Assembly (NCBI GenBank): GCA_020072645.1
Contig: JAIQGK010000003.1
Location: forward strand, 682,001-746,000
Source of the DNA: Terriglobia bacterium
GTDB taxonomy: Bacteria; Acidobacteriota; Terriglobia; Terriglobales; Acidobacteriaceae
Direction of reading: 5' to 3'
DNA: 64,000 bases
This document shows, piece by piece, positions 1 to 64,000 of this stretch. Each line of letters opens with the position of its first letter. Positions within the stretch are counted from its first letter, which is position 1. The translations under genes were made by a program, and so were the position numbers. The notes under the pieces were generated by a model. It worked only from the letters and a program-made list of their open reading frames with translations, ran no database searches and was not told the origin of the DNA.

Positions 1-5
1 TCCTC

Positions 6-2111
6 ATGAGTACATTCCTGAACGCAGAAGATAAAACCGCCAGCACGGCCAATACGCCGGCGCCTCCTCCGCCTCCCGTGGCGAAATCCATCCATACGGA
101 AAACGATATCAACGGCGGCAAGCTGGTGGACGATTACCGCTGGCTGCGCGACAAGTCGAACCCAGAGGTAGCGCAGTATCTGAACGCGGAGAACGCTTAC
201 GCAGAAGGCGTAATGAAGCCCACAGCGGCGCTCCAGCAAAAGCTTTATGACGAGATGGTGAGCCACATCAAAGAGACTGATGTGAACGTGCCATATAAAG
301 ACGGCGGATATTTTTATTATTCGCGCTGGGAAAAAGGGAAGCAGTACCAGATTTATTGTCGCAAGAAGGGGAACCTGGAAGCAGCGGAAGAGATTACGCT
401 GGACCAGAACGAATTGGCCAAAGGGCAGCCTTTCATGTCCTTGGGCGCCTATGAAATGAGCGATGACGGCAATCTTCTGGCTTACTCAACGGATAACACC
501 GGCTTTCGCCAATACAAGCTGCGGGTCCGTGATCTGCGCACGGGCAAGGATTCTGATGTTATTGCCGACAAAGTTGGGTCGGTGGCCTGGGCCAATGACA
601 ACAAGACGCTCTTTTATACGGTGGAAGATGACAAGACCAAGCGCCAATACCAGCTTTACCGGCATGAGCTTGGGGCCGCAGCAGGTAAGGACGACCTGGT
701 CTATGAAGAAAAAGACGAGCGGTTCACGGTAAACGCAGGAAAATCACGCAGCGACAAATATATTTTCCTACAGATCGGCAGCCACACCACGTCTGAAGCG
801 CGATATCTGGATGCGTCAGATCCCAAAGGTGAGTGGAAGCTGATAGCTCCGCGCCAGCAGGACGTTGAGTATTACCCGGACCATCACGCCGACCAGTTTT
901 TGATCCGCGTCAATGACAAAGGCCGGACTTACCGGCTGGTGTCAACGCCGGTGAGCGCTCCGGGAAAAGAGAACTGGAAAGAAATTGTTCCCACGCGGCC
1001 CGATGTGATGCTGAACGACATTGAAGTCTTTGAGGACTTTTACACGCTGGTGGAACGCGAGAACGGGCTGCCGCAGCTCACGATTGTAAAGTTTGCCGAC
1101 ACCAGCAAGCAGCGCATCACTTATCCCGAGCCGGTGTACACGGCTTCTGTTCAGACCAACCGCGAATACAAGACCAACAAGCTGCGCTACGCTTACCAGT
1201 CATTGGTCACGCCTGCATCAGTATTTGATTACGACGTTGAAAAGCATACGTCCACGCTGCTGAAGCAGACTGAAGTGCCCGGCGGTTACGATCCGGCGAA
1301 ATACCAGTCGGAACGCGTATGGGCCACGGCCAAAGATGGCGTTAAAGTCCCGATATCGCTTGTATATCGCAAGGACCTCAAGAAGGCTGACGGTTCCAAT
1401 CCGCTTTATGTCTACGCGTACGGCTCGTATGGCATCATTCTTCCCGTTGCGTTCGGGTCGACCCGTCTCTCGCTGCTGGACCGCGGCGTTGTGATGGCGT
1501 TTGCGCATATCCGCGGCGGCGGCGATATGGGCAAGCCCTGGCATGATGCGGGCCGGATGATGAACAAGATGAACACATTCACTGACTTCATCGCCTGCAC
1601 GGAATACCTGGTGGCAAATAAATATGGCGCGCATGACAAGATCGCCATCGAAGGCGGATCGGCGGGTGGATTGTTGATGGGCGCTGTCACGAACCTGCGT
1701 CCTGATCTGTTCAAGGCCGTGGTTTCGCATGTGCCGTTTGTCGATGTAATGAATACGATGCTGGACGCTTCATTGCCGCTCACCGTGGGCGAGTACGAGG
1801 AGTGGGGCAATCCCAATGAAAAGCCGGCTTACGATTACATGGTGAAGTATTCGCCGTATGACAATCTGAAAAAGGGAGCGTATCCCGCCATATTGGTGAA
1901 GACGTCATTCAACGATAGCCAGGTGATGTACTGGGAGCCGGCAAAATACGTGGCCAAGCTGCGCACGCTCAAGACGGACAAGAATGTGCTGCTGCTAAAG
2001 ACGAATATGGCCGCCGGACATGGCGGTTCGTCCGGACGGTATGACCACCTGAAAGAAATTGCGTTTGATTATGCGTTTATGCTGACGCAGCTGGGGGTTA
2101 GCACTCAGTAA
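6..2111 (+). CDS. Oligopeptidase B-like serine peptidase (S9A)
   Basis: Serine peptidase of the prolyl oligopeptidase family, closest to oligopeptidase B, which cleaves short peptides after basic residues. A propeller region fills roughly residues 60-430 and an alpha/beta-hydrolase domain the rest. The nucleophile is in GGSAGG (Ser552), with Asp637 (FNDSQ) and His672 (AAGHGG) completing the triad; EYEEWGNP ahead of the Asp is typical of oligopeptidase B rather than prolyl oligopeptidase. The length (701 aa) fits the family (about 690). The ATG lies 5 bases from the window edge, so a longer N terminus, for example an export signal, cannot be excluded. The last codons run into a heptamer repeat block, which probably determines the C-terminal residues. 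Confidence 0.93.
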   Translation: MSTFLNAEDKTASTANTPAPPPPPVAKSIHTENDINGGKLVDDYRWLRDKSNPEVAQYLNAENAYAEGVMKPTAALQQKLYDEMVSHIKETDVNVPYKDGGYFYYSRWEKGKQYQIYCRKKGNLEAAEEITLDQNELAKGQPFMSLGAYEMSDDGNLLAYSTDNTGFRQYKLRVRDLRTGKDSDVIADKVGSVAWANDNKTLFYTVEDDKTKRQYQLYRHELGAAAGKDDLVYEEKDERFTVNAGKSRSDKYIFLQIGSHTTSEARYLDASDPKGEWKLIAPRQQDVEYYPDHHADQFLIRVNDKGRTYRLVSTPVSAPGKENWKEIVPTRPDVMLNDIEVFEDFYTLVERENGLPQLTIVKFADTSKQRITYPEPVYTASVQTNREYKTNKLRYAYQSLVTPASVFDYDVEKHTSTLLKQTEVPGGYDPAKYQSERVWATAKDGVKVPISLVYRKDLKKADGSNPLYVYAYGSYGIILPVAFGSTRLSLLDRGVVMAFAHIRGGGDMGKPWHDAGRMMNKMNTFTDFIACTEYLVANKYGAHDKIAIEGGSAGGLLMGAVTNLRPDLFKAVVSHVPFVDVMNTMLDASLPLTVGEYEEWGNPNEKPAYDYMVKYSPYDNLKKGAYPAILVKTSFNDSQVMYWEPAKYVAKLRTLKTDKNVLLLKTNMAAGHGGSSGRYDHLKEIAFDYAFMLTQLGVSTQ

Positions 2112-50098: not shown

Positions 50099-50479
50099 TA
50101 ATGTCTCCCTGCTGCGGTTGGAAAGGCTTCCCGCGAAGGTATCGCGTGGCTTCCGCTCAAGTCAAGCCAGCGTAGTTCTTTGGATAACAGCGTGAGAAAA
50201 CTCAAGAGGGCTATGTCCATCGTTACTGTAATTCGTGTAATCAATGTTCTGAAATTGGAAATTTTTAACTCAAAACGTCAAAAGAAGTGTGCGGTCGTTT
50301 ACCTTCCGAATGGTAGTTAACTTTGTAAAGCGGGAACCGTTAGCGGCGGGAACCCACGCACTTCTTTAATTAAGAGCACGACAATTAAAGCAGATTTGCC
50401 GCGCACAAGCGCGACTAGGGTATTTTTCGTCGCTGCGGATCCGGGAAGTCACACCCTTCGGGCCAAAGGAATTGAATAT
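50099..50479. other. Intergenic region between divergent genes
   Basis: About 380 bases between the SAM hydrolase and the NtrC-like regulator. The regulator frame stays open back to 50396 but that part reads as poor protein. No repeat or RNA recognised; no sigma54 -24/-12 pair found. Confidence 0.35.
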
Positions 50480-51946
50480 ATGGCTTCCAGAGTAGCGGAA
50501 AGGGAATTTATGTCGACTGCAGTGCGGGCCATCCCCCGAGTAGAAGTTTCACCAGCCGAATCTTTATTTCTCCTGATTGTTGATGCAGATCGTTGGGCCA
50601 GGGACATTTCCAGGGACGTTGCCGCCAGCATGGGCTTCAAGGTCTACACCGCCGACAACACTCGCGCGGCATTGCGACAGATGGAAGTTCAGCCTGTCGA
50701 TGTGGTCCTTCTTGACGTACGCCAGTCAAGCCAGGAGGGAGTTGATCTGCTGGCAAAGTTCAAGGAAATACATCCCCAGACTGAAATCATCATGGTCAGC
50801 GGGCAAGCCACAGTTGATTCCGTGGTTACGGCCATGAAAAGTGGCGCCTGTGACTTTATCCGTAAACCCTTCAAGAGTGAAGAATTGAAAACCCTCCTCA
50901 CCCGCGCCGCGGGACGCCTGAGAAACTCGCTGGAAGATCGAATCTCCCGCGAGCACTTGCAGGCGAGCCCCGGCTATAACGGCATGCTCGGCCACTCCCC
51001 GGAAATGCAGAAGCTGTATCGCATTGTCACCAAGGTTGCCACCAGCAGGCATCCAGTGTTGGTGCAGGGTGAAAGCGGCACGGGGAAAGAAACCGTTGCG
51101 CGCGCCATTCATGCCAATGGGCCTTTCCGTGACCGTCCTTTCCTCCTTGTGGATTGCGCGGCTACCGGCAATGGCGTTTTAGAAAATGAACTGTTTGGCC
51201 CCCTGAAGTCGGCCAACGGTTCGGCAAAATCCAGGGACGGTATGTTTGCGCTGGCCAGTGGTGGCACCGTTTTCTTCGATGAAATTGGTGAGATGCCTCT
51301 GGACATTCAAGGCAAGCTGGTTCGTGCCTTGCAGGAAAGAGAATTTCACGCGCAAGGCACTGGAAAAGCTATTCCGGTCGATGTCCGAATTGTTGCGGGT
51401 ACCAGCCGTGATCTGGAATCGGCGGTCCAGCAGGGAACTTTCCGCCGCGATCTTTTCTTCCGTCTGAACGTGGTTGGCCTCCGCCTGCCACCGCTTCGTG
51501 ATCGCAAAGAAGATATTCGTCCGCTGGCGGAAAATTTCCTCGAGCGCGTCGGTCAGGCCCGGCACATGCAGTATTCCATCAATCCTGATGCCTTAAAGCT
51601 GCTCCAGTTTTATGAGTGGCCGGGCAACGTGCGTGAACTGGAAAACTGTCTGGAACGTGCTGTGGCAATGAGTCCTGGGTCCGTGTTGCAAACCGCGGAC
51701 TTTCCTCCTCATATACGGTCGGCCTCTCTTCGCACCGTGGGTCCGGAAAAGCAAGCCAGGATACTTCCCTTGGCTGAACTGGAAAAGCAGGCCATTCTGG
51801 ATGCATTGCACCAGCTCAATGGGGATAAACTGATGACCGCGCGAGCGCTGGGAATCGGCAAGACCACTCTGTATCGCAAGCTGAAGGAATATGGAATCGC
51901 GCATTGGATTTCTTCACCAATGCAGACCCCCAACGGGATGAGGTAA
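50480..51946 (+). CDS. NtrC-like regulator lacking the GAFTGA loop
   Basis: About 488 aa. Receiver domain with Asp79 (VVLLDVRQSS), AAA+ domain with Walker A GESGTGKE (197-204) and Walker B VFFDEIGEM, R-finger region and C-terminal Fis-type HTH (NGDKLMTARALGIGKTTLYRKL). Where sigma54 activators have ELFGYxKGAFTGA, this protein reads ELFGPLKSANGSA (237-249), so the sigma54-contact loop is lost. It should therefore not activate sigma54 holoenzyme; a TyrR-like regulator of sigma70 promoters is one option. Start at 50480 chosen for AAAGGAA upstream; 50510 is an alternative. Confidence 0.88.
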   Translation: MASRVAEREFMSTAVRAIPRVEVSPAESLFLLIVDADRWARDISRDVAASMGFKVYTADNTRAALRQMEVQPVDVVLLDVRQSSQEGVDLLAKFKEIHPQTEIIMVSGQATVDSVVTAMKSGACDFIRKPFKSEELKTLLTRAAGRLRNSLEDRISREHLQASPGYNGMLGHSPEMQKLYRIVTKVATSRHPVLVQGESGTGKETVARAIHANGPFRDRPFLLVDCAATGNGVLENELFGPLKSANGSAKSRDGMFALASGGTVFFDEIGEMPLDIQGKLVRALQEREFHAQGTGKAIPVDVRIVAGTSRDLESAVQQGTFRRDLFFRLNVVGLRLPPLRDRKEDIRPLAENFLERVGQARHMQYSINPDALKLLQFYEWPGNVRELENCLERAVAMSPGSVLQTADFPPHIRSASLRTVGPEKQARILPLAELEKQAILDALHQLNGDKLMTARALGIGKTTLYRKLKEYGIAHWISSPMQTPNGMR

Positions 51947-52303: not shown

Positions 52304-52538
52304 CATTTCCGCCGCGAAATCGCGATTGGCAAAGGTTTTGACGAAGTGGGAGTGGGCTGCAACTATAGGCGGCTCTGCTCCCTCTTTTTACGCCAGAAAG
52401 CTCCTGCCCGTTCAGCCCGGGTTGAGAGAGGGCGCTTCTTGCGCCATGTATTGGTATTTAAAGGACATCCTAAGTTCCTCGCACCGAGTCTAATCCCCTT
52501 TGTAAGCTGCATTGGCAGCGGAAATTGGTAGTCAACAG
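52304..52538. other. Leader region of the glycan operon
   Basis: 235 bases before the methyltransferase. TTGACG (about 52340) with AACTAT 17 bases downstream is a possible promoter. No other structure seen. Confidence 0.3.
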
Positions 52539-53345
52539 ATGGTGACAACACGCGCGAACATGCCTGGAGTCGATACAGCGGCGATGCTGGACGGTAATCA
52601 GGAACTCACACGCCGTATCGCGGAAAAAGGCGATTGGTTTCACAATATCAACCTGAATGGGGTCTGGACGGCCCCTAATCACTTCCTGGGGGACTTTCCC
52701 AATGTAAAGTGGAAGCACATTGCCCCTGCGCTGCCCGCGGATCTGTCCGGCGCCAGCGTGCTTGATATCGGCTGCAATGGCGGGTTCCATTCCATTGAGC
52801 TCAAAAAGAGAGGCGCCAGACGCGTTTTGGGCGTCGATGTGGACGATCGTTACCTGGAGCAGGCGCGCTTTGCCTCTCAGGTGCTGGAACTCGACATCGA
52901 ATTTGCCAAATGCTCTGTCTATGACGTGGATTCCATCCCTGGGCAATTCGACTTTGTCCTGTTTATGGGAGTTTTTTACCATTTGCGCTATCCGTTGTTC
53001 GCGCTCGACAAGGTCGTCAAGAAGGTCGGAGGAAGTCTGATATTCCAGACCATGATTCGCGGCTCTCTCACCAGTCCTGAGCTGCGGGAGGATTATCATT
53101 TCTGGAACATGGAGATATTCAAGGACCCTGATTTTCCCTGTATGTACTTTATTGAAAAGAATTATGCGGGAGATCCCACCAACTGGTGGATCCCCAATCA
53201 CGGCGCAATGGAAGGAATGCTGCGCAGCTCAGGCCTGGAAATTACCTCTCATCCTGAACAGGAAACCTGGATCTGCGCCCCTTCTCACGTCACTAAGGAC
53301 GACGGTAAATATCTTTTGGACCACGAATTAGCGGGCACTCTGTAA
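52539..53345 (+). CDS. SAM-dependent methyltransferase (CmoB/TIGR04290-like)
   Basis: 268-aa class I methyltransferase. SAM-binding motif I is VLDIGCNGGFHSIEL (about 73-87), acidic motif II DVDDRYLEQAR, and FDFVLFMGVFYHLRYPLFALD is motif IV onward. The N-terminal HNINLNGVWTAPNHFLGDFPN and overall layout resemble the CmoB group and the TIGR04290 methyltransferases, which I recall occurring near radical SAM and glycosyltransferase genes. First gene of the glycan cluster, in the same frame as the next gene with 10 codons between stop and start. ATG at 52539 preferred; TTG at 52512 is possible. Substrate unknown; a sugar hydroxyl is likely from context. Confidence 0.82.
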   Translation: MVTTRANMPGVDTAAMLDGNQELTRRIAEKGDWFHNINLNGVWTAPNHFLGDFPNVKWKHIAPALPADLSGASVLDIGCNGGFHSIELKKRGARRVLGVDVDDRYLEQARFASQVLELDIEFAKCSVYDVDSIPGQFDFVLFMGVFYHLRYPLFALDKVVKKVGGSLIFQTMIRGSLTSPELREDYHFWNMEIFKDPDFPCMYFIEKNYAGDPTNWWIPNHGAMEGMLRSSGLEITSHPEQETWICAPSHVTKDDGKYLLDHELAGTL

Positions 53346-53375
53346 CCTGGCCCAGCTCTATGCAAAGGTGCATGC

Positions 53376-54296
53376 ATGGTTGAAGCAGTTATGTTGTGGA
53401 ATGAGCCTAACAATCTCTCGCATTGGGATTTCAAGCTTGATCCCGATTGGAAAATGTTTGCCGGCATGGTCATTGCCGCCAGCAAGGCCATTCGTCGTGA
53501 GAATCCTGAGCTGCCCATAGTGCTCGGTGGGATCTCACCCATAGACCCTCATTTTATTCAACTGCTCGGCTCTTACGGCGTGCTGGATGCCGTAGATGTG
53601 GTCTCTGTCCATGGATTTCCGCTGGATTGGAACCACTGGCAACTTCAGGATTGGCCCAAAAAGATCGAAGAAATTCGCGCCGTCACCAGCAAGCCCGTCT
53701 GGGTTTCTGAAGCTGGTGTTTCCTCTTTCGGCGCTGAAGAAGTGCAGGCCTTTGGCCTCCAGCGCACGGCTGAGCTGCTGATGCCGATTGTGGACCGCGT
53801 GCACTGGTATAGCCTGCTTGACCTGCCGGCAACGTGGTCGGCCACTACACGCCACAAAGAAGCTGAAGGCAGCGCTTATTATCGCCATTACTACATGGGA
53901 CTCTTGCGTGAAGACGGTTCACCCAAGCTGGCCGCGGAATCATTCCCCAGCGGAATGGGAATCTGCCAGTGGTTCCATTATGAAGATCCTCGTCTCGACC
54001 TCGCCGTCGATTGGTTGAAGCGCCTGGGCGTCAAGTATCTGCGCACTGGCGTAAGCTGGGCGGATTGGTACCGTGAGAACGCGGAAGCATGGTTCGATCG
54101 CCAAATGCAGGCCCTGGAACCTTTCAACACCACGCTGACGCTGTGTTTTACTCCGGAGCACATGGGGATCGCTCCCCATTACACTAGTCCGCCAAAACGC
54201 GCTGAAGACTTTGCTGAGTTTGCAGTCTGGGCCGTGCGCAAGTATGCCGCCGTAGCAGCAAGAAAAGATAATCCCGCTTTAATAGGAGCCAGGTAA
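53376..54296 (+). CDS. GH-A-like glycosidase with permuted barrel order
   Basis: 306 aa. The acid/base motif WNEPNN (Glu10) and nucleophile motif WVSEAG (Glu112) are those of clan GH-A retaining glycosidases such as GH39 xylosidases. They normally follow strands beta1-beta3, but here beta4 is at the very N terminus, beta8-like RVHWYSLLDL is near 141-150, and a beta1-beta3-like segment (MGICQWFHY...LDLAVDWLKRLGVKYLRTGVSW...TLTLCFTPEHMG) forms residues 194-265, ending in the helix that would lead into beta4. No missing first half exists upstream, where only 30 bases separate it from the methyltransferase stop. AAAGG ribosome site. Activity (trimming or transglycosylation of a glycan) is inferred. 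Confidence 0.75.
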   Translation: MVEAVMLWNEPNNLSHWDFKLDPDWKMFAGMVIAASKAIRRENPELPIVLGGISPIDPHFIQLLGSYGVLDAVDVVSVHGFPLDWNHWQLQDWPKKIEEIRAVTSKPVWVSEAGVSSFGAEEVQAFGLQRTAELLMPIVDRVHWYSLLDLPATWSATTRHKEAEGSAYYRHYYMGLLREDGSPKLAAESFPSGMGICQWFHYEDPRLDLAVDWLKRLGVKYLRTGVSWADWYRENAEAWFDRQMQALEPFNTTLTLCFTPEHMGIAPHYTSPPKRAEDFAEFAVWAVRKYAAVAARKDNPALIGAR

Positions 54297-54299
54297 GAA

Positions 54300-55418
54300 A
54301 TGGCAAAGAACATACTCATCACTGGCGGCGCAGGGTTTGTGGGATCGCACCTTGCTGACGCTCTGCTGGCCGCTGGCCACCACGTTCGCATTCTTGACAA
54401 CCTTACAGGCCAGGTCCATCGCGATGGAATTCCTGAATACCTGGCTGATGGCGTTGAGTTCATTCAAGGCGATGTTCGGGATTCAGCCGCTATGCGGCGC
54501 GCGCTAGCGGGCGTTGAGATCGTCTTTCACATGGCAGCCGCCGTGGGTGTAGGCCAGTCAATGTATGAGATTGAGCATTACATGGGTACCAACACGCAGG
54601 GCACAGCAGTACTGCTGCAGCAACTTCTGGACCGTAGATGCAGGGTGGAGAAGCTGGTGCTGGCTTCGTCCATGTCGATCTACGGCGAAGGAAAATATCT
54701 TTGCGCACAATGCGGCAGCGTGTCCCCGCAGCTTCGCACCGTCGACCAGCTCAGGCTCAAACAGTGGGAGCCAAACTGCCCCACGTGTGGTGAAGCTCTT
54801 ACGCCGATTCCAACCGATGAATCCAAGCCGCTCCAGTGCAGCTCCATTTATGCGCTTTCCAAGAAAGACCAGGAAGAAATGTCGCTGCTCTTTGGCCGGA
54901 CGTACAGCCTACCCGTAGTGGCATTGCGCTACTTCAATATCTACGGGACGCGGCAAGCGCTTTCCAATCCGTATACGGGCGTGGCCGCAATCTTCGCTTC
55001 GCGATTGATGAACGGCAATCCTCCGCTGATTTTTGAAGATGGAGCGCAGCTGCGTGACTTTGTCAGCGTGGAAGATGTTGTCCGCGCCAACCTGCTGGCC
55101 ATGGAGTCTTCGCAAGCAGACGGCATGGCGCTAAACATTGGATCGGGTGAGCCGATTTCGATTCGTGAAGTGGCGACCGAACTGGCGTGCGCTATGGACT
55201 CTGACATTGCCGCGGAGCTTACCCAGAAATACCGCGCCGGCGATGTCCGCCATTGTTTTGCCGATATCTCTGCCGCACGCAAATTTCTTGGGTACACGCC
55301 GCAAGTACGTTTTACCGATGGATTGAAAGACCTGGTGGAGTGGTTGTGCTCACAGCAGCCGCAGGACCGTGCCGCTGAAGCAGTGGCCCAACTCAGCGAA
55401 TTTGGGTTGACGGCCTAG
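54300..55418 (+). CDS. NAD-dependent sugar epimerase with zinc-ribbon insertion
   Basis: 372-aa extended SDR acting on a nucleotide sugar. NAD motif GGAGFVG (9-15), Ser in ASSMSIYGEG and the active-site YALSK. An insertion at about 133-166 carries Cys135-x-x-Cys138 and Cys160-x-x-Cys163, a likely zinc knuckle. A similar insertion, as I recall, occurs in dTDP-L-rhamnose 4-epimerases of the WbiB type, which makes a deoxysugar epimerase a reasonable guess. Starts 4 bases after the GH-A gene stop, so translation is probably coupled. Confidence 0.87.
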   Translation: MAKNILITGGAGFVGSHLADALLAAGHHVRILDNLTGQVHRDGIPEYLADGVEFIQGDVRDSAAMRRALAGVEIVFHMAAAVGVGQSMYEIEHYMGTNTQGTAVLLQQLLDRRCRVEKLVLASSMSIYGEGKYLCAQCGSVSPQLRTVDQLRLKQWEPNCPTCGEALTPIPTDESKPLQCSSIYALSKKDQEEMSLLFGRTYSLPVVALRYFNIYGTRQALSNPYTGVAAIFASRLMNGNPPLIFEDGAQLRDFVSVEDVVRANLLAMESSQADGMALNIGSGEPISIREVATELACAMDSDIAAELTQKYRAGDVRHCFADISAARKFLGYTPQVRFTDGLKDLVEWLCSQQPQDRAAEAVAQLSEFGLTA

Positions 55419-55447: not shown

Positions 55448-56560
55448 ATGCGCAAGCAGGATACCCGCGCGGTGTTGATTTTTGGAGGAGCAGGCTTTAT
55501 CGGGTCGAACCTGGCCCACTCTCTGCTCTCCCACACCGATGCCAAGGTGCACATTTTTGATAATCTCTCCCGCGCCGGAGTGCACCACAATGTGGAATGG
55601 CTGAGAAAAATGGCAGGCAATTCCGGACGGCTCCAGGTGACGGTCGGCGATGTCCGCGATGCCCGTCAGGTTGAGAAAGCCGTGGCCCATGCGAACGAGA
55701 TTTATCATTTTGCCGCGCAGGTCGCAGTCACCACGTCTGTTGCCGATCCTCGGCATGACTTTGAAGTGAATCTCGCCGGCACATTCAATGTTCTGGATGC
55801 TGCCCGTCGGTCGGGCAATCGGCCTTTTATTCTGTTTACATCAACCAATAAAGTTTATGGCGAACTGGGCCTTGGCACGCCAGTCATCAGCGGCAAGCGT
55901 TATATAACTCCGATGCAGCAGGGCGTTTCAGAATCACAGCCGCTGGATTTCCACTCTCCTTATGGATGTTCCAAAGGCGCTGCTGATCAGTACGTGCGCG
56001 ATTTTGGCCGAATCTACGGCATGCCAACCGTTGTCTTCAGGATGTCCTGTGTGGCTGGGCCACGGCAATTTGGCACGGAAGATCAGGGATGGGTGGCCCA
56101 CTTTGTTTATTCCGCTTTGCAGGAAGAACCAGTCGTAATCTATGGCGATGGACGCCAGGTGCGCGACGTGCTTTGCGTGGACGACCTGCTGCGCGCCTTC
56201 GACGCCGCGCGCCAGAATATTGAAATTACCAGGACTGAGGTTTACAACGTGGGCGGCGGCCCGCAGAATTCCATCTCTCTCCTTGAACTGATGGATGAGA
56301 TCGCCATGTTGACCGGGCATCCAATGGAATGTGTGCTGAACGAGCGCCGCATTGGCGATCAACTGGTCTATATCACCAATAACGCCAAGATCCAGCAGGA
56401 CACTGGCTGGAGACCCGAGATCGGGCTCAAGAAGACGTTGCGGCTTTTGCAAAGCTTCTGGGAAGAGAACCATGGAGTGCTGGCCAAGCGGCGGCGTAAC
56501 ACCGCACCAGCCTTGCCGTCCTTTGAACTGGCCACCGAACTCTCCGGGAGGGCGGGATGA
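55448..56560 (+). CDS. CDP-paratose 2-epimerase-like SDR
   Basis: 370-aa extended SDR. NAD motif GGAGFIG (15-21), TSTNKVYGE, active-site YGCSK in FHSPYGCSKGAADQYVRD, and MSCVAGPRQFGTEDQGWVAHF. The last two blocks are characteristic of CDP-paratose 2-epimerase (tyvelose synthase) and its relatives, so a C2 epimerisation of a CDP- or UDP-sugar is likely. No CDP-glucose dehydratase or paratose synthase is next door. Overlaps the radical SAM gene by 4 bases (ATGA). Confidence 0.88.
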   Translation: MRKQDTRAVLIFGGAGFIGSNLAHSLLSHTDAKVHIFDNLSRAGVHHNVEWLRKMAGNSGRLQVTVGDVRDARQVEKAVAHANEIYHFAAQVAVTTSVADPRHDFEVNLAGTFNVLDAARRSGNRPFILFTSTNKVYGELGLGTPVISGKRYITPMQQGVSESQPLDFHSPYGCSKGAADQYVRDFGRIYGMPTVVFRMSCVAGPRQFGTEDQGWVAHFVYSALQEEPVVIYGDGRQVRDVLCVDDLLRAFDAARQNIEITRTEVYNVGGGPQNSISLLELMDEIAMLTGHPMECVLNERRIGDQLVYITNNAKIQQDTGWRPEIGLKKTLRLLQSFWEENHGVLAKRRRNTAPALPSFELATELSGRAG

Positions 56561-57855
56561 AGTTTGCCCTGCTCAATCCCAACTGGGACTTCAAGGGCTC
56601 AACCTATTTCGGCTGTCAGGACGCGCATACTCCGCTTGAGCTCTTGTTTGCCGCCGATCAATTGCGTATTGCTGGTCATGAATCTCTGGTAATCGATGCG
56701 CAGACGGACACTCTCAGCATCAACGAAGCGCGTCGTCGGCTCGATGCATTCGCGCCCGACTTTCTAGTGATCCCGACTGCGCCTTCATATCTCTTCTGGC
56801 GCTGTCCACCGCCGGAGCTGCGCGTGCCTATGGAATGGTTTGCCGGCTTGCGTAGCAATGCGATCAAAGTCGCTATTGGCCCGCATCCTTCGGCGACGCC
56901 CGCAGCGACTATCCGCAAGACTGGCTGTGACGTGACGCTACGTGGAGAACCCGACCAGATTCTGGCGGAACTCGCGAGCAAGCCGTGGCATGAGATTATC
57001 GGCTGCTGCTTCAGAGAAGAAGATGGGCAATTGCACATCAGCCCTGGTTCGGCCGTTACAGATATGGCCACCTTGGGACCGCTTGATTTCAAAAATTACA
57101 ACGTTGGAGCGCACTGGCATCGTCACCATGTCTTCACCAATGATCACGGTCTTGGAGCAGAACTGGAGTTTGCCCGTGGATGTCCCTGGGCATGCACCTT
57201 CTGCAACAAGACGCTTTTTCGCAATAAATTCCGCGAGCGCAGCGTGGATGCCGTTCTCCAGGAAGTGGATACGCTGATCGCGCGCGGCGTCCAATACATT
57301 TATTTCATCGATGAAATCTTCGGCGTCGGCAAGAATGTTAATCGTTTGCTGGAAGGCATTGCTGAGCGTCCGATGAAGATTGGTTTTCAGACGCGCATTG
57401 ATCTCTGGAATGAAGACACGCTGGACCTTCTGGGCCGCGCCCATTGCATTTCCATGGAATGCGGAGTGGAGTCCATCACGCCTGAAGGCCGTGAAGACCT
57501 GAATAAAAATTGCCGCATAGGCACGGACCGCATCGCGGAATTGCTGGTCTATGCTCGCGGCCGCATTCCGTGGGTGCAGGCGAATTTGATTCTCACGGAG
57601 CGGGACGATCGCGCGGAGATTCACCGCTGGCAGGAACAATTGAAGCAAAAAGGCGTCTGGGTGAGCGAGCCGGTGCCTATGTTCCCATATCCAGGGAGCC
57701 CACTTTATAACCAGACTTTTTCCGCCACGCCGGACGACATGGCCTGGGAGCGCGCCCATCGCCACTACACGTCGATGTTTGCGGACAAGGGCTATAGCGA
57801 CATTCAAGAGCAAACGCCGCTGGCGATCGAGGAATTGGAAACATGCACATCTTAG
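56557..57855 (+). CDS. B12-binding-type radical SAM protein
   Basis: 432 aa. N-terminal cobalamin-binding-like Rossmann region (about 1-135; PLELLFAADQLRIAGHESLVIDAQ) without the DxHxxG cobalamin ligand motif, as in many of this class. The radical SAM core has Cys209-x-x-x-Cys213-x-x-Cys216 (GCPWACTFCNK), then YIYFIDEIFG and SMECGVESITPEGRE. Possible reactions include C-methylation or rearrangement of a sugar or lipid-linked intermediate; it resembles the radical SAM group (TIGR04295, from memory) found with oligosaccharide genes. Overlaps both neighbours. Confidence 0.87.
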   Translation: MKFALLNPNWDFKGSTYFGCQDAHTPLELLFAADQLRIAGHESLVIDAQTDTLSINEARRRLDAFAPDFLVIPTAPSYLFWRCPPPELRVPMEWFAGLRSNAIKVAIGPHPSATPAATIRKTGCDVTLRGEPDQILAELASKPWHEIIGCCFREEDGQLHISPGSAVTDMATLGPLDFKNYNVGAHWHRHHVFTNDHGLGAELEFARGCPWACTFCNKTLFRNKFRERSVDAVLQEVDTLIARGVQYIYFIDEIFGVGKNVNRLLEGIAERPMKIGFQTRIDLWNEDTLDLLGRAHCISMECGVESITPEGREDLNKNCRIGTDRIAELLVYARGRIPWVQANLILTERDDRAEIHRWQEQLKQKGVWVSEPVPMFPYPGSPLYNQTFSATPDDMAWERAHRHYTSMFADKGYSDIQEQTPLAIEELETCTS

Positions 57856-58949
57856 TCACGGCGGATACGCTGGGCGGTGTTTGGACATACACGCGGGAGT
57901 TGGTGACGGGGCTTGTACGCCGCGGCGATCGGGTCACGCTCGTGAGCTTTGGCGACATTCCTACCGCCGCGCAAACGCGTTGGATGGACGGCCTGGCCAA
58001 TCTTGATTATCGACCCACGGCGTTCAAGCTGGAATGGATGCTCGATTCTGAAGCCGACATGGAAGCATCGTCCCAATATCTTCTGGCGACTATCGATGAA
58101 AGCCGTCCCGATCTTCTCCATTTCAGCCAGTTCTATTACGGAGCTTTGCCGTGCGATGTTCCGCGCGTCGTGGTTGCTCACAGTGATGTTGTGAGCTGGT
58201 GGATGTCCGTCCACCGGCAGTTGCCGCCGGAAACTGAATGGCTGCACTGGTATCGCCAGATAGTCACTCGCGGCTTGCATGAAGCCACAACTGTGGTCGC
58301 GCCTTCGCGCTGGATTCTGGAACAAATTGAGCTTTATTACGGCAAGCTTCGGTCCAGCGCCGTAATTCACAATGGCCGTAGCCCCGCCTTGTTTAATCCC
58401 TACATCGGCAAACAGGAAACCACCGTGACGTTGGGACGTTTGTGGGACACCGGCAAGAACGTATCCCTTCTGCTGAAACGTGAAATGCCCGGATCGGTGC
58501 GCATCGTTGGATGTGACCGCCATCCTGATTTGCAACATCATTCCTTCGTGGCTGAAACAATCAGACCCAACATTTCCCTGGATCCCCAGCAGGATGAGCG
58601 GCAGATCACGCAGACGCTGGCTCGCGCCGGAATTTATGCCGCAACTTCGCAATATGAGCCGTTCGGCCTGGCTCCGGTGGAAGCGGCGCTTTCACGCTGC
58701 GCCATCGTTGCCAGCGATATACCCTCGTTCCGCGAACTCTGGGAAGGTGCGGCAATTTTCTTCCGCAACAATGATCCGGAAAGCTTGAGTGAGGCGCTTG
58801 AACGTGTCCAACGCGACCCTGTTTTACGCCTGAGCTACGGCAACATGGCGCTGCGCCACGCGCGGCTGCATTTCACGGCTGACCGCATGGTCGCGGACTA
58901 CAAGCATCTTTATCACAAGCTGGCCCCCGCGCAGGCCCTCAGCGCATGA
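57843..58949 (+). CDS. GT4-family glycosyltransferase 1
   Basis: 368-aa GT-B enzyme. N-terminal LVTADTLGGVWTYTRELVTGL acceptor-domain start; C-terminal donor site with ATSQYEPFGLAPVEAALS (E-x7-E). The middle VTLGRLWDTGKNVSLLL is the usual link. Retaining transfer from a nucleotide sugar. Overlaps the radical SAM gene by 13 bases and the next gene by 4. Confidence 0.88.
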   Translation: MHILVTADTLGGVWTYTRELVTGLVRRGDRVTLVSFGDIPTAAQTRWMDGLANLDYRPTAFKLEWMLDSEADMEASSQYLLATIDESRPDLLHFSQFYYGALPCDVPRVVVAHSDVVSWWMSVHRQLPPETEWLHWYRQIVTRGLHEATTVVAPSRWILEQIELYYGKLRSSAVIHNGRSPALFNPYIGKQETTVTLGRLWDTGKNVSLLLKREMPGSVRIVGCDRHPDLQHHSFVAETIRPNISLDPQQDERQITQTLARAGIYAATSQYEPFGLAPVEAALSRCAIVASDIPSFRELWEGAAIFFRNNDPESLSEALERVQRDPVLRLSYGNMALRHARLHFTADRMVADYKHLYHKLAPAQALSA

Positions 58950-60067
58950 GCCAGAAGCTCAATATCGCTCTCTTTTCCCACTCCATGGTTTCTGACTGGA
59001 ACCATGGCAACGCTCACTTTCTGCGCGGACTGATGCGTGAACTGGTGCGCTTGGGCCACACTGTCCGCTGTTATGAAGAGTTGAGCTCCTGGTCGCTCAC
59101 CAACCTGATGAAGCAGGAGGGCGAGCGCGCTATTGAGGCCATAGATTCTTTCCGCCGCGCTTATCCTGAACTCGATATCCGTTTTTATAAGTCCGGTGAC
59201 GACGATTTCTCCCGGTTTCTGGAAGATGAGTTGAAAGAGACCCACGTCGTCTTGTTGCACGAATGGAATGATCCTCGAGTGGTAAATCAGGTGCTCGCGT
59301 TGAAGAAAAAGCTTGGCTTTACCGCGCTGTTCCATGACAGCCATCACCGCGCTCACACTAGCGCCGGTGAAATTCTAAAGTTTCATTTGCACCTGGTGGA
59401 TGGCGTGCTCGCGTTTGGCGAAGCCATCCGCCGTATTTATGTCGATGGCTTCGGCATTAACCGCGCATGGACTTTTCATGAAGCCGCTGACGTGGAGCAG
59501 TTCCATCCGCTCCAGCGCCGCAAAGAGATTGACGTGGTCTGGATCGGCAACTGGGGCGACGATGAGCGTTCCGCCGAACTGGATGAGTTCCTGATCCAGC
59601 CGGCGCTGGCCCTGCCGGAACTGCGCGTGGTGGCTCACGGCGTCCGTTATCCCGACTTTGCGCTGCAAAAGCTGGTCGGGGCCAACATTGAGTATCGCGG
59701 CTATTTGCCCAACTTGTTTTCTCCACAGGTTTATGCGGAAAGCGTGGTCACCTTGCATATTCCACGCCGTGAGTATGCAAATGGCCTGGCCGGTATTCCC
59801 ACCATTCGCGTGTTCGAGGCCCTGGCCTGCGGTATTCCGCTGGTCTGTTCGCCCTGGATGGATCAGGAAAATCTCTTTCGTCCCGGCGAAGATTACCTGG
59901 TAGTGAATGACGGCGTTGAGATGACGGAGCAGCTGCGGCACCTTCGCCGCGATGGAAAGGCGCGTTATCAGCTTGCCGAAAATGGATTGCAGACCATTCG
60001 TGAGCGCCATACCTGCGCTCATCGCGCGCAACAACTGATGGAAATCTGCCAGGAGATCTCGCGATGA
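58946..60067 (+). CDS. CgeB-like glycosyltransferase 1
   Basis: 373-aa GT-B protein of the CgeB/Glyco_trans_1_2 type. Starts NIALFSHSMVSDWNHGNAHFLRGLMRELV; donor half has YLPNLFSPQVYAESVVTLHIPRREY and IRVFEALACGIPLVCSPW with EDYLVV. Related in layout to the next two genes but the most divergent of the three. Overlap of 4 bases with each neighbour indicates translational coupling. Confidence 0.85.
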   Translation: MSQKLNIALFSHSMVSDWNHGNAHFLRGLMRELVRLGHTVRCYEELSSWSLTNLMKQEGERAIEAIDSFRRAYPELDIRFYKSGDDDFSRFLEDELKETHVVLLHEWNDPRVVNQVLALKKKLGFTALFHDSHHRAHTSAGEILKFHLHLVDGVLAFGEAIRRIYVDGFGINRAWTFHEAADVEQFHPLQRRKEIDVVWIGNWGDDERSAELDEFLIQPALALPELRVVAHGVRYPDFALQKLVGANIEYRGYLPNLFSPQVYAESVVTLHIPRREYANGLAGIPTIRVFEALACGIPLVCSPWMDQENLFRPGEDYLVVNDGVEMTEQLRHLRRDGKARYQLAENGLQTIRERHTCAHRAQQLMEICQEISR

Positions 60068-61146
60068 AACTTTTCGTTTTTGGCTCCAGCATCACATCTT
60101 CTTACTGGAACGGCGCGGCGACTTATTATCGCGGCATTTATAAGCAGCTTCACGTGCTGGGACATCAGATTACATTCGCCGAGCCTGACGCTTATCGCCG
60201 CCTGCAAAACCGTGATGCGGGCGATTTCAGCTACGTTGAAACCATAGTTTACAAAGATGCTGAAGAAATTCCCGCCCTGCTGAAGCAGGCCGCCGAATGC
60301 GATCTGGTGGTCAAGCACAGCGGGGTGGGCGTATTCGACGAACTGCTGGAAGAAAAAGTGTTGGAGTGCCGGTCCGATAAGACCCGGGTCGCGTTTTGGG
60401 ACGTGGATGCTCCCGCGACTTTGTCGCGCGTGGAAACAAATCCTACTGACGCATTTCGTGCGCTCATTCCCGAATACGATTTTATTTTTACTTATGGCGG
60501 CGGTGCGCCGGTTGTGGATCACTACCGGCGTCTGGGCGCGGCCAATTGCCATCCCATTTACAACGCACTAGATCCGGAAACGCATCATCCTGTCCCGCCG
60601 GATCCAGCTTTGGCCTGCGATCTGTTATTTGTAGGCCATCGCTTGCCGGACCGCGAGCGCCGCGTAGAAGAGTTTTTCTTCCGCGCAGCCGAGCTTGCTC
60701 CAGAGTTCCATTTCGCATTGGGCGGGGAAGGATGGGGCGGCAAGCGGCTTCCTGCCAATGTCCGCTGGATAGGCCACGTGGGTACGGGCGATCACAACCG
60801 CGTGAACTGTTCCGCGCACATGGTGCTGAACATCAACCGCGACTCCATGGCGGGCGTGGGATTTTCTCCGCCCACGCGCGTCTTTGAAGCCGCCGGCGCA
60901 GGGGCGTGCCTGATTACAGACCGTTGGGCGGGTATCGACCAGTTCTTTGCCCCGGAAAAAGAGATACTGGTAGCGGACTGCGCGGAAGGAATTGTTTCCT
61001 GCTTGCGGAACATCTCCGCAGCCAGAGCAAAAGAGATTGGCCAGAACATGCACGCGCGGGCGTTGCGCGACCATACGTATGCATTGCGAGCGAAAGAAGT
61101 GGATGCCATTCTTGAACCGGTGTCAGTGGGCCCTGTAACAGGTTGA
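60064..61146 (+). CDS. CgeB-like glycosyltransferase 2
   Basis: 360-aa CgeB-family protein beginning FVFGSSITSSYWNGAATYYRG, a start shared with the following paralog. Donor half: VLNINRDSMAGVGFSPPTRVFEAAGAGACLITDRW and EILVAD. The repeated DLLFVGHRLPDRERRVEEFFF is the family's second-domain entry. Sugar and acceptor unknown. Confidence 0.86.
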   Translation: MKLFVFGSSITSSYWNGAATYYRGIYKQLHVLGHQITFAEPDAYRRLQNRDAGDFSYVETIVYKDAEEIPALLKQAAECDLVVKHSGVGVFDELLEEKVLECRSDKTRVAFWDVDAPATLSRVETNPTDAFRALIPEYDFIFTYGGGAPVVDHYRRLGAANCHPIYNALDPETHHPVPPDPALACDLLFVGHRLPDRERRVEEFFFRAAELAPEFHFALGGEGWGGKRLPANVRWIGHVGTGDHNRVNCSAHMVLNINRDSMAGVGFSPPTRVFEAAGAGACLITDRWAGIDQFFAPEKEILVADCAEGIVSCLRNISAARAKEIGQNMHARALRDHTYALRAKEVDAILEPVSVGPVTG

Positions 61147-61196
61147 CGTTATCCTTGCTCGGGTCGGGAAACGGCGCATTTCACCAGCGAGATAAA

Positions 61197-61224
61197 GCTA
61201 ATTGCTGACTGCTGATTGCTGATT
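61197..61224. repeat. Imperfect heptamer tandem repeat, block 5
   Basis: GCTAATT-GCTGACT-GCTGATT-GCTGATT, four units ending one base before the ATG of the third CgeB-like gene; no Shine-Dalgarno sequence is left in this position. Confidence 0.75.
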
Positions 61225-61225
61225 T

Positions 61226-62332
61226 ATGAAAATCACTATTTTCGGTCTTTCGATCACTTCGTCCTGGGGCAACGGACACGCGACTACGTTTCGCGCCTTG
61301 TGCCAGGCGTTGCATCGTCGCGGGCACCGCATTGTGTTTTTTGAGCACAATGTGGAGTGGTACCAGAACAACCGCGACCTGCCCAATCCCCCATATTGTG
61401 AAGTAAAGATTTTTGAAAGTTGGGAAGAGATTCTTCCGTCCGTCAGGACTGAGCTGCGCGATTCCGACATCGCGATGGTCGGCTCTTATTTTCCGGACGG
61501 TATTGCCGCCTTGGAAGAGGTACTGGCGTCGAATGTCCCGATAAAGGCTTTTTATGATATCGATACGCCAATCACGGTTCGCAGCCTCCGGGAAAATGGC
61601 CGCGCTGACTATCTGCTTAAGTCGCATCTTTCTGAATTGGACATTTATTTCAGCTTTACCGGTGGCCCGCTGCTTCAGTTGATTCAGGAAGACTTAGGAT
61701 CGCCGTTTGCTGTGCCGCTCTATTGTTCGGTCGATCCGGACAAACATTGCGCGCTCTCTGTAGATCCCAGATTTGCCTGCGACATGAGCTATATGGGAAC
61801 TTATGCGCCAGACCGCCAGCCAAAGATCGACGAATTGCTGTGCGCTCCCGCCCGGAAATTGCCGGATCAGAAATTTATTGTCGCCGGCCCGCAATATCCG
61901 TCGCATATCGACTGGCCTGAGAACGTGGAGCGCACCATGCATTTGAACCCGTGCTATCACGCGCAGCTTTACAGCTCGTCGCGGATCACGCTGAATGTTA
62001 CCCGGCGAGAGATGGTGGTGGCCGGGTACTCGCCTTCCGTGCGATTGTTTGAGGCTGCTGCCTGCGGCGCGGCCATTGCTTCTGACAATTGGCCAGGGCT
62101 GGAAACTTTCTTCACTCCGGGCCGGGAAATCCTTCTGGCCACCGGAGCGGATGATATGGTTCGCTACCTAAAGAATTATGATGACGCCGAACTTCGACGC
62201 ATCGGCCGGGCCGCGCGCAACCGTGTCCTTGCCGGCCATACCAGTGATGTGCGAGCTCGGGAATTTGAGCAAGCTGTGGAAATCGCGAGCAGCTCAGCAA
62301 AACACCGCGACCCTTTGAACGCGATTAACTAA
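61226..62332 (+). CDS. CgeB-like glycosyltransferase 3
   Basis: 368-aa CgeB-family protein, start TIFGLSITSSWGNGHATTFRAL as in the previous paralog. Donor half: LNVTRREMVVAGYSPSVRLFEAAACGAAIASDNW and EILLATGADDMVRYL. Unlike its neighbours it is separated from the preceding gene by 79 bases filled in part by heptamer repeats and lacks a ribosome site, so its translation may be controlled differently. Confidence 0.86.
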   Translation: MKITIFGLSITSSWGNGHATTFRALCQALHRRGHRIVFFEHNVEWYQNNRDLPNPPYCEVKIFESWEEILPSVRTELRDSDIAMVGSYFPDGIAALEEVLASNVPIKAFYDIDTPITVRSLRENGRADYLLKSHLSELDIYFSFTGGPLLQLIQEDLGSPFAVPLYCSVDPDKHCALSVDPRFACDMSYMGTYAPDRQPKIDELLCAPARKLPDQKFIVAGPQYPSHIDWPENVERTMHLNPCYHAQLYSSSRITLNVTRREMVVAGYSPSVRLFEAAACGAAIASDNWPGLETFFTPGREILLATGADDMVRYLKNYDDAELRRIGRAARNRVLAGHTSDVRAREFEQAVEIASSSAKHRDPLNAIN

Positions 62333-62474
62333 AAAGTTCCAGCCAAATCTCCGCCCGAGCGGCGATTTAACGTCACAATGTGAAGTTCGCGACGAAAGTT
62401 GCGTGCTACATCTCTTTACTTGTGTCACCAGAGTTGGATTCCGCATCTTATTTGTATTGTTCAATTTAAACCCT

Positions 62475-63521
62475 ATGAGAGTAGCCCTTATTGCACCACC
62501 GTTCATTGCAGTGCCTCCGAAAAGATACGGTGGTACGGAGTTATTCATTGCGGAATTGGCCCACGGACTCCAGCGCCAGGGAGTCGAAGTGGTTGTGTAT
62601 ACCAACGGCGAATCCACGGTCGATGCGCCCATGCGCTGGCTTTATCCTGAAGGTGAGTGGCCGTTGAAGCATGAAGTGGAAGCCTCACTGAAAGGCTTGA
62701 ACCATTTTGCCTGGGCCATTCAAGAGGCGACGGAGCACGCCGATCTGATCCATGTGAACAGTGCTCCTGGCTTGAGTTTTTCCCGATTTACTGACGTTCC
62801 CATGGTTTACACCGTGCATCATGCGCTCGACGAGTCGCTGGCGGAGTTCTATCAGTCGTATCCGGACGTTTCTTACGTCACCATCAGTGACTTTCAGCGG
62901 GAAAAGCTCAGCATGCCGGACATGAGGACCATTCACCACGGAATTGATCCAGCGCTTTATTCCGTGCCCGACGAAAAAAGAGAGTACCTCAGTTTTTTAG
63001 GCAGAATTGCGCCGCCCAAAGGTACGCATCTGGCAATCGAAATCGCCAAGAAATCGGGTATTCCGCTCAAGATCGCCGGTGAAATCCAGCCCATTTATAA
63101 GCAGTATTGGGAAACCCAGGTCAAGCCGCACGTGGACGGCAAGTTCATTGAGTATGTGGGCGAAGTGGGAATGGAAGAGAAGGTCGAACTGCTGGGCAAA
63201 TCCCGCGCCATGCTTTTTCCCGTGCAGTGGGACGAGCCTTTTGGTCTTGTTATGATTGAAGCCATGGCCTGTGGAGCTCCTGTTCTGGCCATGCCCGGCG
63301 GATCTGTTGGAGAAGTGGTGAAGGAAGGTGTGAGCGGCAACGTGCGCAAGACCGCCGATGAGTTGGGGGAGTGCGCGCGCAATCTGGCCATGCCGGCGAC
63401 TAAGGTTCGCAGCTACATGGAAGAATTTTTTTCTGTAAAGCGGATGACCCAGGATTACATCAACCTGTATGCAGAAATTCTGCGTGATGGCGTGGCCGAG
63501 GCGGAGCAGATCGTGGCATGA
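62475..63521 (+). CDS. GT4-family glycosyltransferase 2
   Basis: 348-aa GT4 enzyme. Start MRVALIAPPFIAVPPKRYGGTELFIAEL, with the GGTE loop of the acceptor domain; donor site FPVQWDEPFGLVMIEAMACGAPV (E-x7-E); YLSFLGRIAPPKGTHLAIE links the halves. ATG at 62475 is preferred, since the 24 residues before it read as non-coding; a weak promoter may lie in the 142-base gap upstream. Overlaps the next gene by 4 bases. Confidence 0.9.
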   Translation: MRVALIAPPFIAVPPKRYGGTELFIAELAHGLQRQGVEVVVYTNGESTVDAPMRWLYPEGEWPLKHEVEASLKGLNHFAWAIQEATEHADLIHVNSAPGLSFSRFTDVPMVYTVHHALDESLAEFYQSYPDVSYVTISDFQREKLSMPDMRTIHHGIDPALYSVPDEKREYLSFLGRIAPPKGTHLAIEIAKKSGIPLKIAGEIQPIYKQYWETQVKPHVDGKFIEYVGEVGMEEKVELLGKSRAMLFPVQWDEPFGLVMIEAMACGAPVLAMPGGSVGEVVKEGVSGNVRKTADELGECARNLAMPATKVRSYMEEFFSVKRMTQDYINLYAEILRDGVAEAEQIVA

Positions 63522-64000
63522 ACGCAAAACTCCTGATACCCCAAGCCGAGCTGGTGAAGATATCTCCGCCTTATCCAGAGCCACGGCTGGTGTACCAGAA
63601 TGCGGAGCCGCGCAAGGTCAACAATCTTACTCTGATCGATGGCAAGACTTTTCTCTCCACGACTATTGCCGGGGACATCATGCCTCCGGGCGCTTCGGAT
63701 GTTGGCTTCTTCCATGATGACACCCGTTTTCTAAGCCGCCTGGAGCTTCGCGTCGATGGATACCGCACCGTGGTCCTTTCTTCCAGCACGGAACAGACTT
63801 TTGCTTCGCAGATTGAACTGACCACCGGCAAAAGCACGATGCGTGAGACGTATGAAATTCCTGAGAACACGGTCCACATCCGCCGCGAGCAGCTGCTTTC
63901 CTCTGAAACGCTGTTTGACAATTTTTCTTTTGAGAATTTCAACTTCCATGAGCTTGAACTGAATATTGAACTGGCTTATGAAGCCGATTTCATGGACGTA
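63518..64000 (+). CDS. Amylo-alpha-1,6-glucosidase/GDE-type protein, N-terminal part
   Basis: Runs off the window; 161 residues visible. DGKTFLSTTIAGDIMPPG, GFFHDDTRFLSRLELRVDG and NTVHIRREQLLSSETLFDNFSFENF match the N-terminal beta domain (GDE_N_bis type) of bacterial glycogen debranching-like proteins. The catalytic GH15-like barrel would lie beyond 64000. In this position it may trim or build an alpha-glucan rather than act on storage glycogen. Start ATG overlaps the GT4 stop as ATGA. Confidence 0.85.
   Translation, partial: MNAKLLIPQAELVKISPPYPEPRLVYQNAEPRKVNNLTLIDGKTFLSTTIAGDIMPPGASDVGFFHDDTRFLSRLELRVDGYRTVVLSSSTEQTFASQIELTTGKSTMRETYEIPENTVHIRREQLLSSETLFDNFSFENFNFHELELNIELAYEADFMDV

Follow-up and report, generated by a model that had tools for sequence, protein, structure and literature searches.

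The best match of known structure to the protein described here is PslG of Pseudomonas aeruginosa (CAZy GH39; PDB 5bx9, 9g17), a retaining endo-β-glucosidase that uses Glu165 as acid/base and Glu276 as nucleophile (PMC11912335), that likewise has its gene in a cluster for polysaccharide synthesis (PMC11912335, PMC9075953) and that is important in Psl synthesis by virtue of its hydrolytic activity (PMC9075953). A similar role, as a hydrolase within a methylated-polysaccharide cluster, is played by MmpH, which is needed for the formation of methylmannose polysaccharide in mycobacteria (PMC9883506), but as an (α/α)6 inverting endo-mannosidase of unrelated fold it offers an analogy only. Natural permutations of glycoside hydrolase (GH) barrels are rare in the literature that we searched, where they comprise GH70 relative to GH13 and the domain-order permutations of GH13_19 MalS and GH3; for a permuted clan GH-A barrel we found no precedent in the open-access literature. 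The GH70 glucansucrases are permuted (β/α)8 enzymes cut by α3, with the order α3-β4-...-β8-α8-β1-...-β3, and have known unpermuted relatives in GH13 of clan GH-H (PMC4919382).

Here we describe a protein encoded in the window (the whole 64,000-nucleotide stretch of DNA analysed) that we believe, with a probability of roughly 0.9, to be an intact GH-A type (PslG/GH39-like) barrel that is naturally circularly permuted and descends from canonical relatives (Table 1). Unlike PslG, which has the canonical strand order, about 415 residues with a further C-terminal part and a location mainly at the inner membrane/periplasm, the window protein lacks a signal peptide. It also differs from the GH70 enzymes, which start at α3, end at β3 and are large, secreted, multidomain and α-specific members of an unrelated clan, in that it starts at β4 and ends at α3 (the cut lying one element further), and in that it carries the Glu at β4 and β7 of the GH-A type rather than the Asp nucleophile at β4 of GH13/GH70. 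Judged by its sequence, the window protein would be like GH70 in topology only and not a member of that family.

Table 1. Features of the permuted gene and its cluster in the window.
Feature	Position	Strand	Basis
TIGR04290 family methyltransferase, immediate upstream neighbour	52512..53345	+	NCBIfam 349.8 bits, cut-off 300
AAAGG, likely ribosome-binding site, 7 nt before ATG	53364..53368	+	Read directly
Predicted circularly permuted GH-A type barrel gene, 306 aa	53376..54296	+	AlphaFold2 model, rotation test, 97 distinct permuted homologs
Glu10 codon, predicted acid/base (WNEPN, end of β4), equivalent to PslG Glu165	53403..53405	+	PslG alignment; invariant in 43 homologs; PslG residues per PMC11912335
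Glu112 codon, predicted nucleophile (WVSEAG, end of β7), equivalent to PslG Glu276	53709..53711	+	PslG alignment; invariant; PslG residues per PMC11912335
β1-α1-β2-α2-β3-α3 segment, residues 190-291, N-terminal in canonical relatives	53943..54248	+	Aligns to PslG 21-128 and to first 100 residues of canonical fusions
SDR1, NAD-dependent epimerase/dehydratase family	54300..55418	+	Pfam PF01370
SDR2, NAD-dependent epimerase; orthologs elsewhere with N-terminal canonical GH barrel	55448..56560	+	PF16363/PF01370; fusion orthologs
TIGR04295 family B12-binding radical SAM protein	56557..57855	+	NCBIfam 628 bits, cut-off 400
Four glycosyltransferases: one GT4-like, three of Glyco_trans_1_2 (PF13524) type	57843..62332	+	Pfam
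Further GT4-like glycosyltransferase, probably window-specific neighbour	62403..63521	+	Pfam

The initial annotation had placed WNEPN at residues 8-12, WVSEAG at 109-114 and the motifs GICQWFHY, LKRLGVKYLRTGVSW and TLTLCFTPEH in the C-terminal third, and all of these are present as described in the 306-residue translation. It had also noted that the preceding gene ends 30 bases upstream and that no first half is lost there, which holds, as the methyltransferase stop lies at 53345 and an in-frame stop is found just 10 codons 5' of the start. The ATG at 53376 directly precedes β4, and the homologs likewise begin about 7 residues ahead of WNEPN (7 residues in nearly all permuted ORFs), with an upstream in-frame stop at 2-16 codons in many of their loci, so that their N-terminus is fixed at β4. 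These stops rule out a missing first half-barrel upstream. The protein is recognised by no NCBIfam model and by no Pfam model above its cut-off, and the name 'beta-xylosidase' that its homologs bear in public records has no backing from any NCBIfam model; if our reading is right, a widespread protein that now goes under this name is explained.

With respect to fold, the initial annotation had proposed a single barrel in permuted strand order and had counted any other fold as evidence against it. An AlphaFold2 model made from a 43-sequence alignment (pLDDT 89.4, pTM 0.88) predicts one barrel of exactly eight strands (residues 2-7, 48-53, 75-80, 108-113, 142-145, 195-197, 221-227 and 251-257), with no other fold seen in it, and closed TIM barrels align to it over residues 3-291. 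The helices separate these strands as expected for β4-β8 followed by β1-β3, with α3 (276-290) coming last, such that instead of the canonical clan GH-A order from β1 to β8 the elements run β4-α4-...-β8-α8-β1-α1-β2-α2-β3-α3 and the new termini lie between α3 and β4. From the strand assignment and the whole-barrel alignments we infer that β3 and β4 would form the closing contact. VIA-align placed PslG on residues 1-220 only (27-28% identity, 2.9-3.3 Å) and placed unrelated barrels end to end (e.g. 2..293) at 4-12% identity and about 4 Å in a shifted register; on the predicted model, such alignment of PslG just to the breakpoint together with generic barrels out of register reads as the signature of a permutation. 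A Foldseek search with the model returned only generic TIM barrels, since sequential alignment is unable to follow a permutation. As in clan GH-A enzymes, Asn-Glu stands at the end of β4 (N9-E10) and Glu at the end of β7 (E112), and the permuted protein thereby keeps both catalytic Glu and the β4 Asn along with the clan-typical β2 Arg and β8 Trp.

It had further been expected that the rotated sequence would score higher than the native order, and this proved correct. In a PDB search the native profile matched PslG in two out-of-order pieces (197-293 to PslG 21-128, and 2-184 to PslG 131-319; 34.7 bits, E 1e-7), whereas the rotated profile matched it in a single piece (PslG 25-319; 45.6 bits, E 5e-11). 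The GH39 similarity of the rotated profile is to PslG, GH39 xylosidases being reached at just E 0.015-0.6, and the sequence has no Pfam GH39 match in either native or rotated form; rotation of single sequences raised the Pfam Glyco_hydro_cc score only slightly (from 16.8 to 18.3 and from 19.3 to 21.4 bits), too little to be informative. Moreover, a scan of cut points against a canonical fusion (L173) gave a score of 468 rotated and 310 native, the optimum against canonical fusions falling near residues 188-200, and the C-terminal third alone scored 172 against β1-β3 of a canonical relative, compared with 32 ± 5 for shuffled copies.

Canonical relatives were sought on plasmids by tblastn with the rotated sequence, which gave continuous matches (3-286, about 30% identity) to proteins of Rhizobium, Tistrella, Geminicoccaceae and Xanthomonas sacchari that are annotated only as 'NAD-dependent epimerase/dehydratase' (e.g. 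R. etli WP_011427519.1, Geminicoccaceae WGF90846.1). In these proteins a canonically ordered GH barrel at the N-terminus precedes the epimerase domain (SDR2), and they are hereby marked as bearing an unannotated predicted hydrolase domain. They resemble the window protein in the whole rotated barrel, the catalytic Glu and the gene cluster, which runs SDR1, GH-SDR2 fusion, optionally the TIGR04295 radical SAM protein, four glycosyltransferases and, further on, the TIGR04290 methyltransferase; they differ in that their GH has the canonical strand order and is joined to SDR2, whereas the window GH is permuted and a separate gene. In a maximum-likelihood tree of the rotated permuted and the canonical barrels, the permuted proteins form one clade (support 100/98), the fused canonical barrels are its sister and all outgroups are canonical, so that the canonical order is ancestral and the permutation arose a single time. 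As for GH70, an unpermuted family is thus found from which the permuted barrel derives, here with both a canonical sister and a canonical outgroup. The outgroup GHs (L165-L170, L149, L258), which are about 470-500 residues long, come mainly from Bacteroidota and have no epimerase fused to them, group in a well-supported branch of their own.

The initial annotation had offered either a circular permutation or two half-barrels exchanged by recombination. The first of these is borne out by model, rotation and tree, and the second is unneeded because both parts match the same canonical family. A chimera, in which half-barrels of different GH families were joined rather than one ancestor permuted, might account for the weak and mixed Pfam matches of the native-order protein (Glyco_hydro_cc, GH53, GH113 and Cellulase), but we consider it very unlikely given that both parts match one fusion family from the same cluster and are continuous once rotated, and that the tree places the rotated whole beside that family as its fully supported sister.

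In a scan of species genomes we obtained 80 homologous loci (60-97% identity), and with later searches this grew to a permuted set of 140 ORFs, 97 of them distinct, from at least nine phyla (Acidobacteriota, Pseudomonadota, Bdellovibrionota, Myxococcota, Bacteroidota, Verrucomicrobiota, Fibrobacterota, Planctomycetota and Actinomycetota). All 97 are permuted and have the same two ends, and in 43 homologs from many phyla W8, N9, E10, P11, N12, H79, W109, E112 and W144 are invariant, as are Q198, W199, R223, C257 and P260, a degree of conservation that goes beyond coincidence. We suppose that the permutation arose when a barrel was duplicated, the copies fused and the outer parts were lost. As such a route would go through a tandem stage, and as the tail after α3 is variable, the gene might instead be seen as a truncated tandem, the remnant of a duplicated barrel whose apparent β1-β3 come from a second, cut-off copy and do not make one working domain with the rest. 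This is extremely unlikely, for the same ends recur across all the distinct homologs and phyla, the catalytic and β1-β3 residues are invariant, the model is a single barrel, and no extra half-barrel, first barrel upstream or tandem-barrel intermediate was found among the 140 permuted ORFs; a full unpermuted barrel ahead of the segment in homologs was the very finding that the initial annotation had set against its own proposal. Shared ends, upstream stops and the lack of an additional half-barrel indicate that the permuted gene is a complete and conserved unit. It occurs in about 6 of 297 acidobacterial genomes, is absent from the other sampled genome of the window's genus and is common on plasmids, a patchy distribution that points to horizontal spread.

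The two forms occur together in 21 genomes (18 Hymenobacteraceae, two gammaproteobacteria and one member of Acidobacteriia), and so the mutual exclusion that the alphaproteobacterial sample would suggest, where no genome has both, does not hold. In 9 of these 21 the fused canonical domain lacks a catalytic Glu, as against none of the 29 in the canonical-only set (three of which are plasmid records, whose scope is the plasmid alone). Examples of the lost motifs are WITAAG, WIDPF and WNAPN, and in many more of the co-occurring fused domains substitutions affect neighbouring residues that are invariant elsewhere, for instance the Tyr that follows the β8 Trp. The sample was enlarged after the pattern had been noticed in the first three co-occurring cases; for the last two fusions added, losses were expected beforehand and both are dead, with WNRPD/WITATG in G1808 and WNQPDN and a missing β7 Glu in G1819. 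In G1808, the Acidobacteriia genome, the dead fusion and an intact permuted gene stand at opposite ends of one operon. A stand-alone canonical GH of 490 residues from the Bdellovibrionales (G1797) was left out of the comparison, having no epimerase fusion. By parsimony at least five independent losses of a catalytic Glu are needed, most of them within the one family Hymenobacteraceae; Fisher's test gives p = 1e-4 for 9/21 against 0/29 when ancestry is ignored, and phylogenetic sign tests, underpowered with five independent pairs, gave no significance (p 0.25-0.5 for dead and 0.125-0.5 for eroded domains). When the epimerase half of each protein is taken as its internal clock, the ratio of dN between the two halves (GH/SDR) is 7.6, 2.7 and 1.6 in three groups that have the permuted gene, and 0.93 and 1.07 where that gene is lacking. 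The dN/dS of fused domains that coexist with a permuted gene is nevertheless 0.13-0.17, well below 1, so that they are relaxed rather than neutral. In a further Hymenobacter-family genome with the permuted gene (G1705, L239, C3:5556131-5556979) the canonical GH frame stops after 354 residues, apparently severed from its epimerase half, another sign of decay.

The fused domain loses catalytic residues and is less constrained in the presence of the permuted gene, and SDR2 of the window has no GH domain; the permuted enzyme therefore probably performs the function of the ancestral fused domain and supplants it. An alternative is that the two enzymes differ in substrate, and that the relaxation reflects a change of the cluster and not replacement; it could explain why both Glu are retained by the fused domain in 12 of the 21 co-occurring genomes and why the permuted proteins have a private conserved motif (ATTRHREAEGS) after β8, and the independent pairs are few. 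We regard this as possible but rather unlikely, seeing that no canonical-only fusion has a catalytic loss, that relaxation, judged against the epimerase half as internal control, is limited to the GH half, and that SDR2 has lost its GH domain in the window, where the permuted gene alone exists. On balance we favour replacement also in its wider form, in which the permutant arose once, spread horizontally across phyla and displaces its ancestor, the fused domain decaying repeatedly and finally being deleted. If true, a permuted enzyme would here have naturally and repeatedly taken the place of the original within one and the same pathway, and to us the enzyme, its ancestor and the apparent takeover of the ancestral active site outweigh the topology alone in interest. 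With both orders in one cluster, sometimes in one operon, and the ancestor clear, the cost or benefit of a permuted barrel becomes directly testable.

Since Glu10 and Glu112 align with Glu165 and Glu276 of PslG, the permuted protein is a predicted retaining β-glycosidase that would act by double displacement; both catalysis and substrate are what we infer from sequence. As it begins directly at β4 it lacks a signal sequence, and Pfam and NCBIfam recognised neither a transporter nor a polymerase from the methyltransferase to the last glycosyltransferase, for which reasons we place it in the cytosol. There, given also the sugar-nucleotide epimerases, glycosyltransferases and methyltransferase that adjoin it, it may cleave or transglycosylate a cytosolic oligosaccharide made by the cluster, in trimming, release or primer recycling. 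By analogy with PslG and MmpH this is its most likely role, and we put at about even the chances that it hydrolyses the cluster's own product. The cytosolic, biosynthetic surroundings and the many invariant aromatic residues besides the catalytic ones would also suit a protein that is mainly a transglycosidase, or a glycan-binding regulator of the glycosyltransferases, and not a hydrolase. We think this unlikely, as the invariance of both retaining-mechanism Glu argues for catalysis, although hydrolysis and transfer are indistinguishable from sequence. Other copies adjoin an inositol-3-phosphate synthase and a UDP-glucuronate decarboxylase-like gene, a hint, useful as a lead only, of an inositol- or pentose-containing product.

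The gene order in the window is methyltransferase, permuted GH, SDR1, SDR2, radical SAM protein and glycosyltransferases, and the TIGR04290 methyltransferase lies directly upstream of the permuted gene in 66 of the 80 homologous loci; a literature search on TIGR04290, TIGR04295 and the cluster found nothing relevant. The TIGR04295 protein is present in just part of both cluster types (in the window and in L084, L086 and L256, but absent in R. etli L085, Sinorhizobium meliloti L201 and Roseomonas L202), and thus appears to be an optional step. Alphaproteobacterial clusters (L084, L201, L202) add an inositol-3-phosphate synthase and a histidine phosphatase, and some of them also a zinc-binding dehydrogenase and a Gfo/Idh/MocA oxidoreductase, additions that suggest an inositol-derived building block. 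SDR1 of the window carries at 54699-54803 (about residues 134-168) an inserted CxxC...CxxC (CAQCGSVSPQ...NCPTCGE) with weak zinc-ribbon matches, the cysteines of which are absent from the X. sacchari ortholog. A sigma-54 type response regulator (50396-51946) stands ahead of the cluster, as it does at a number of related loci in acidobacteria (e.g. L002-L004, L006, L008), and the X. sacchari cluster (L087) is also flanked by a sigma-54 regulator. At the window end, directly 3' of the last glycosyltransferase and overlapping it by 4 bases, begins a glycogen-debranching-like GH with a GDE_N_bis domain (63518-64000; also at L203:1019-3235).
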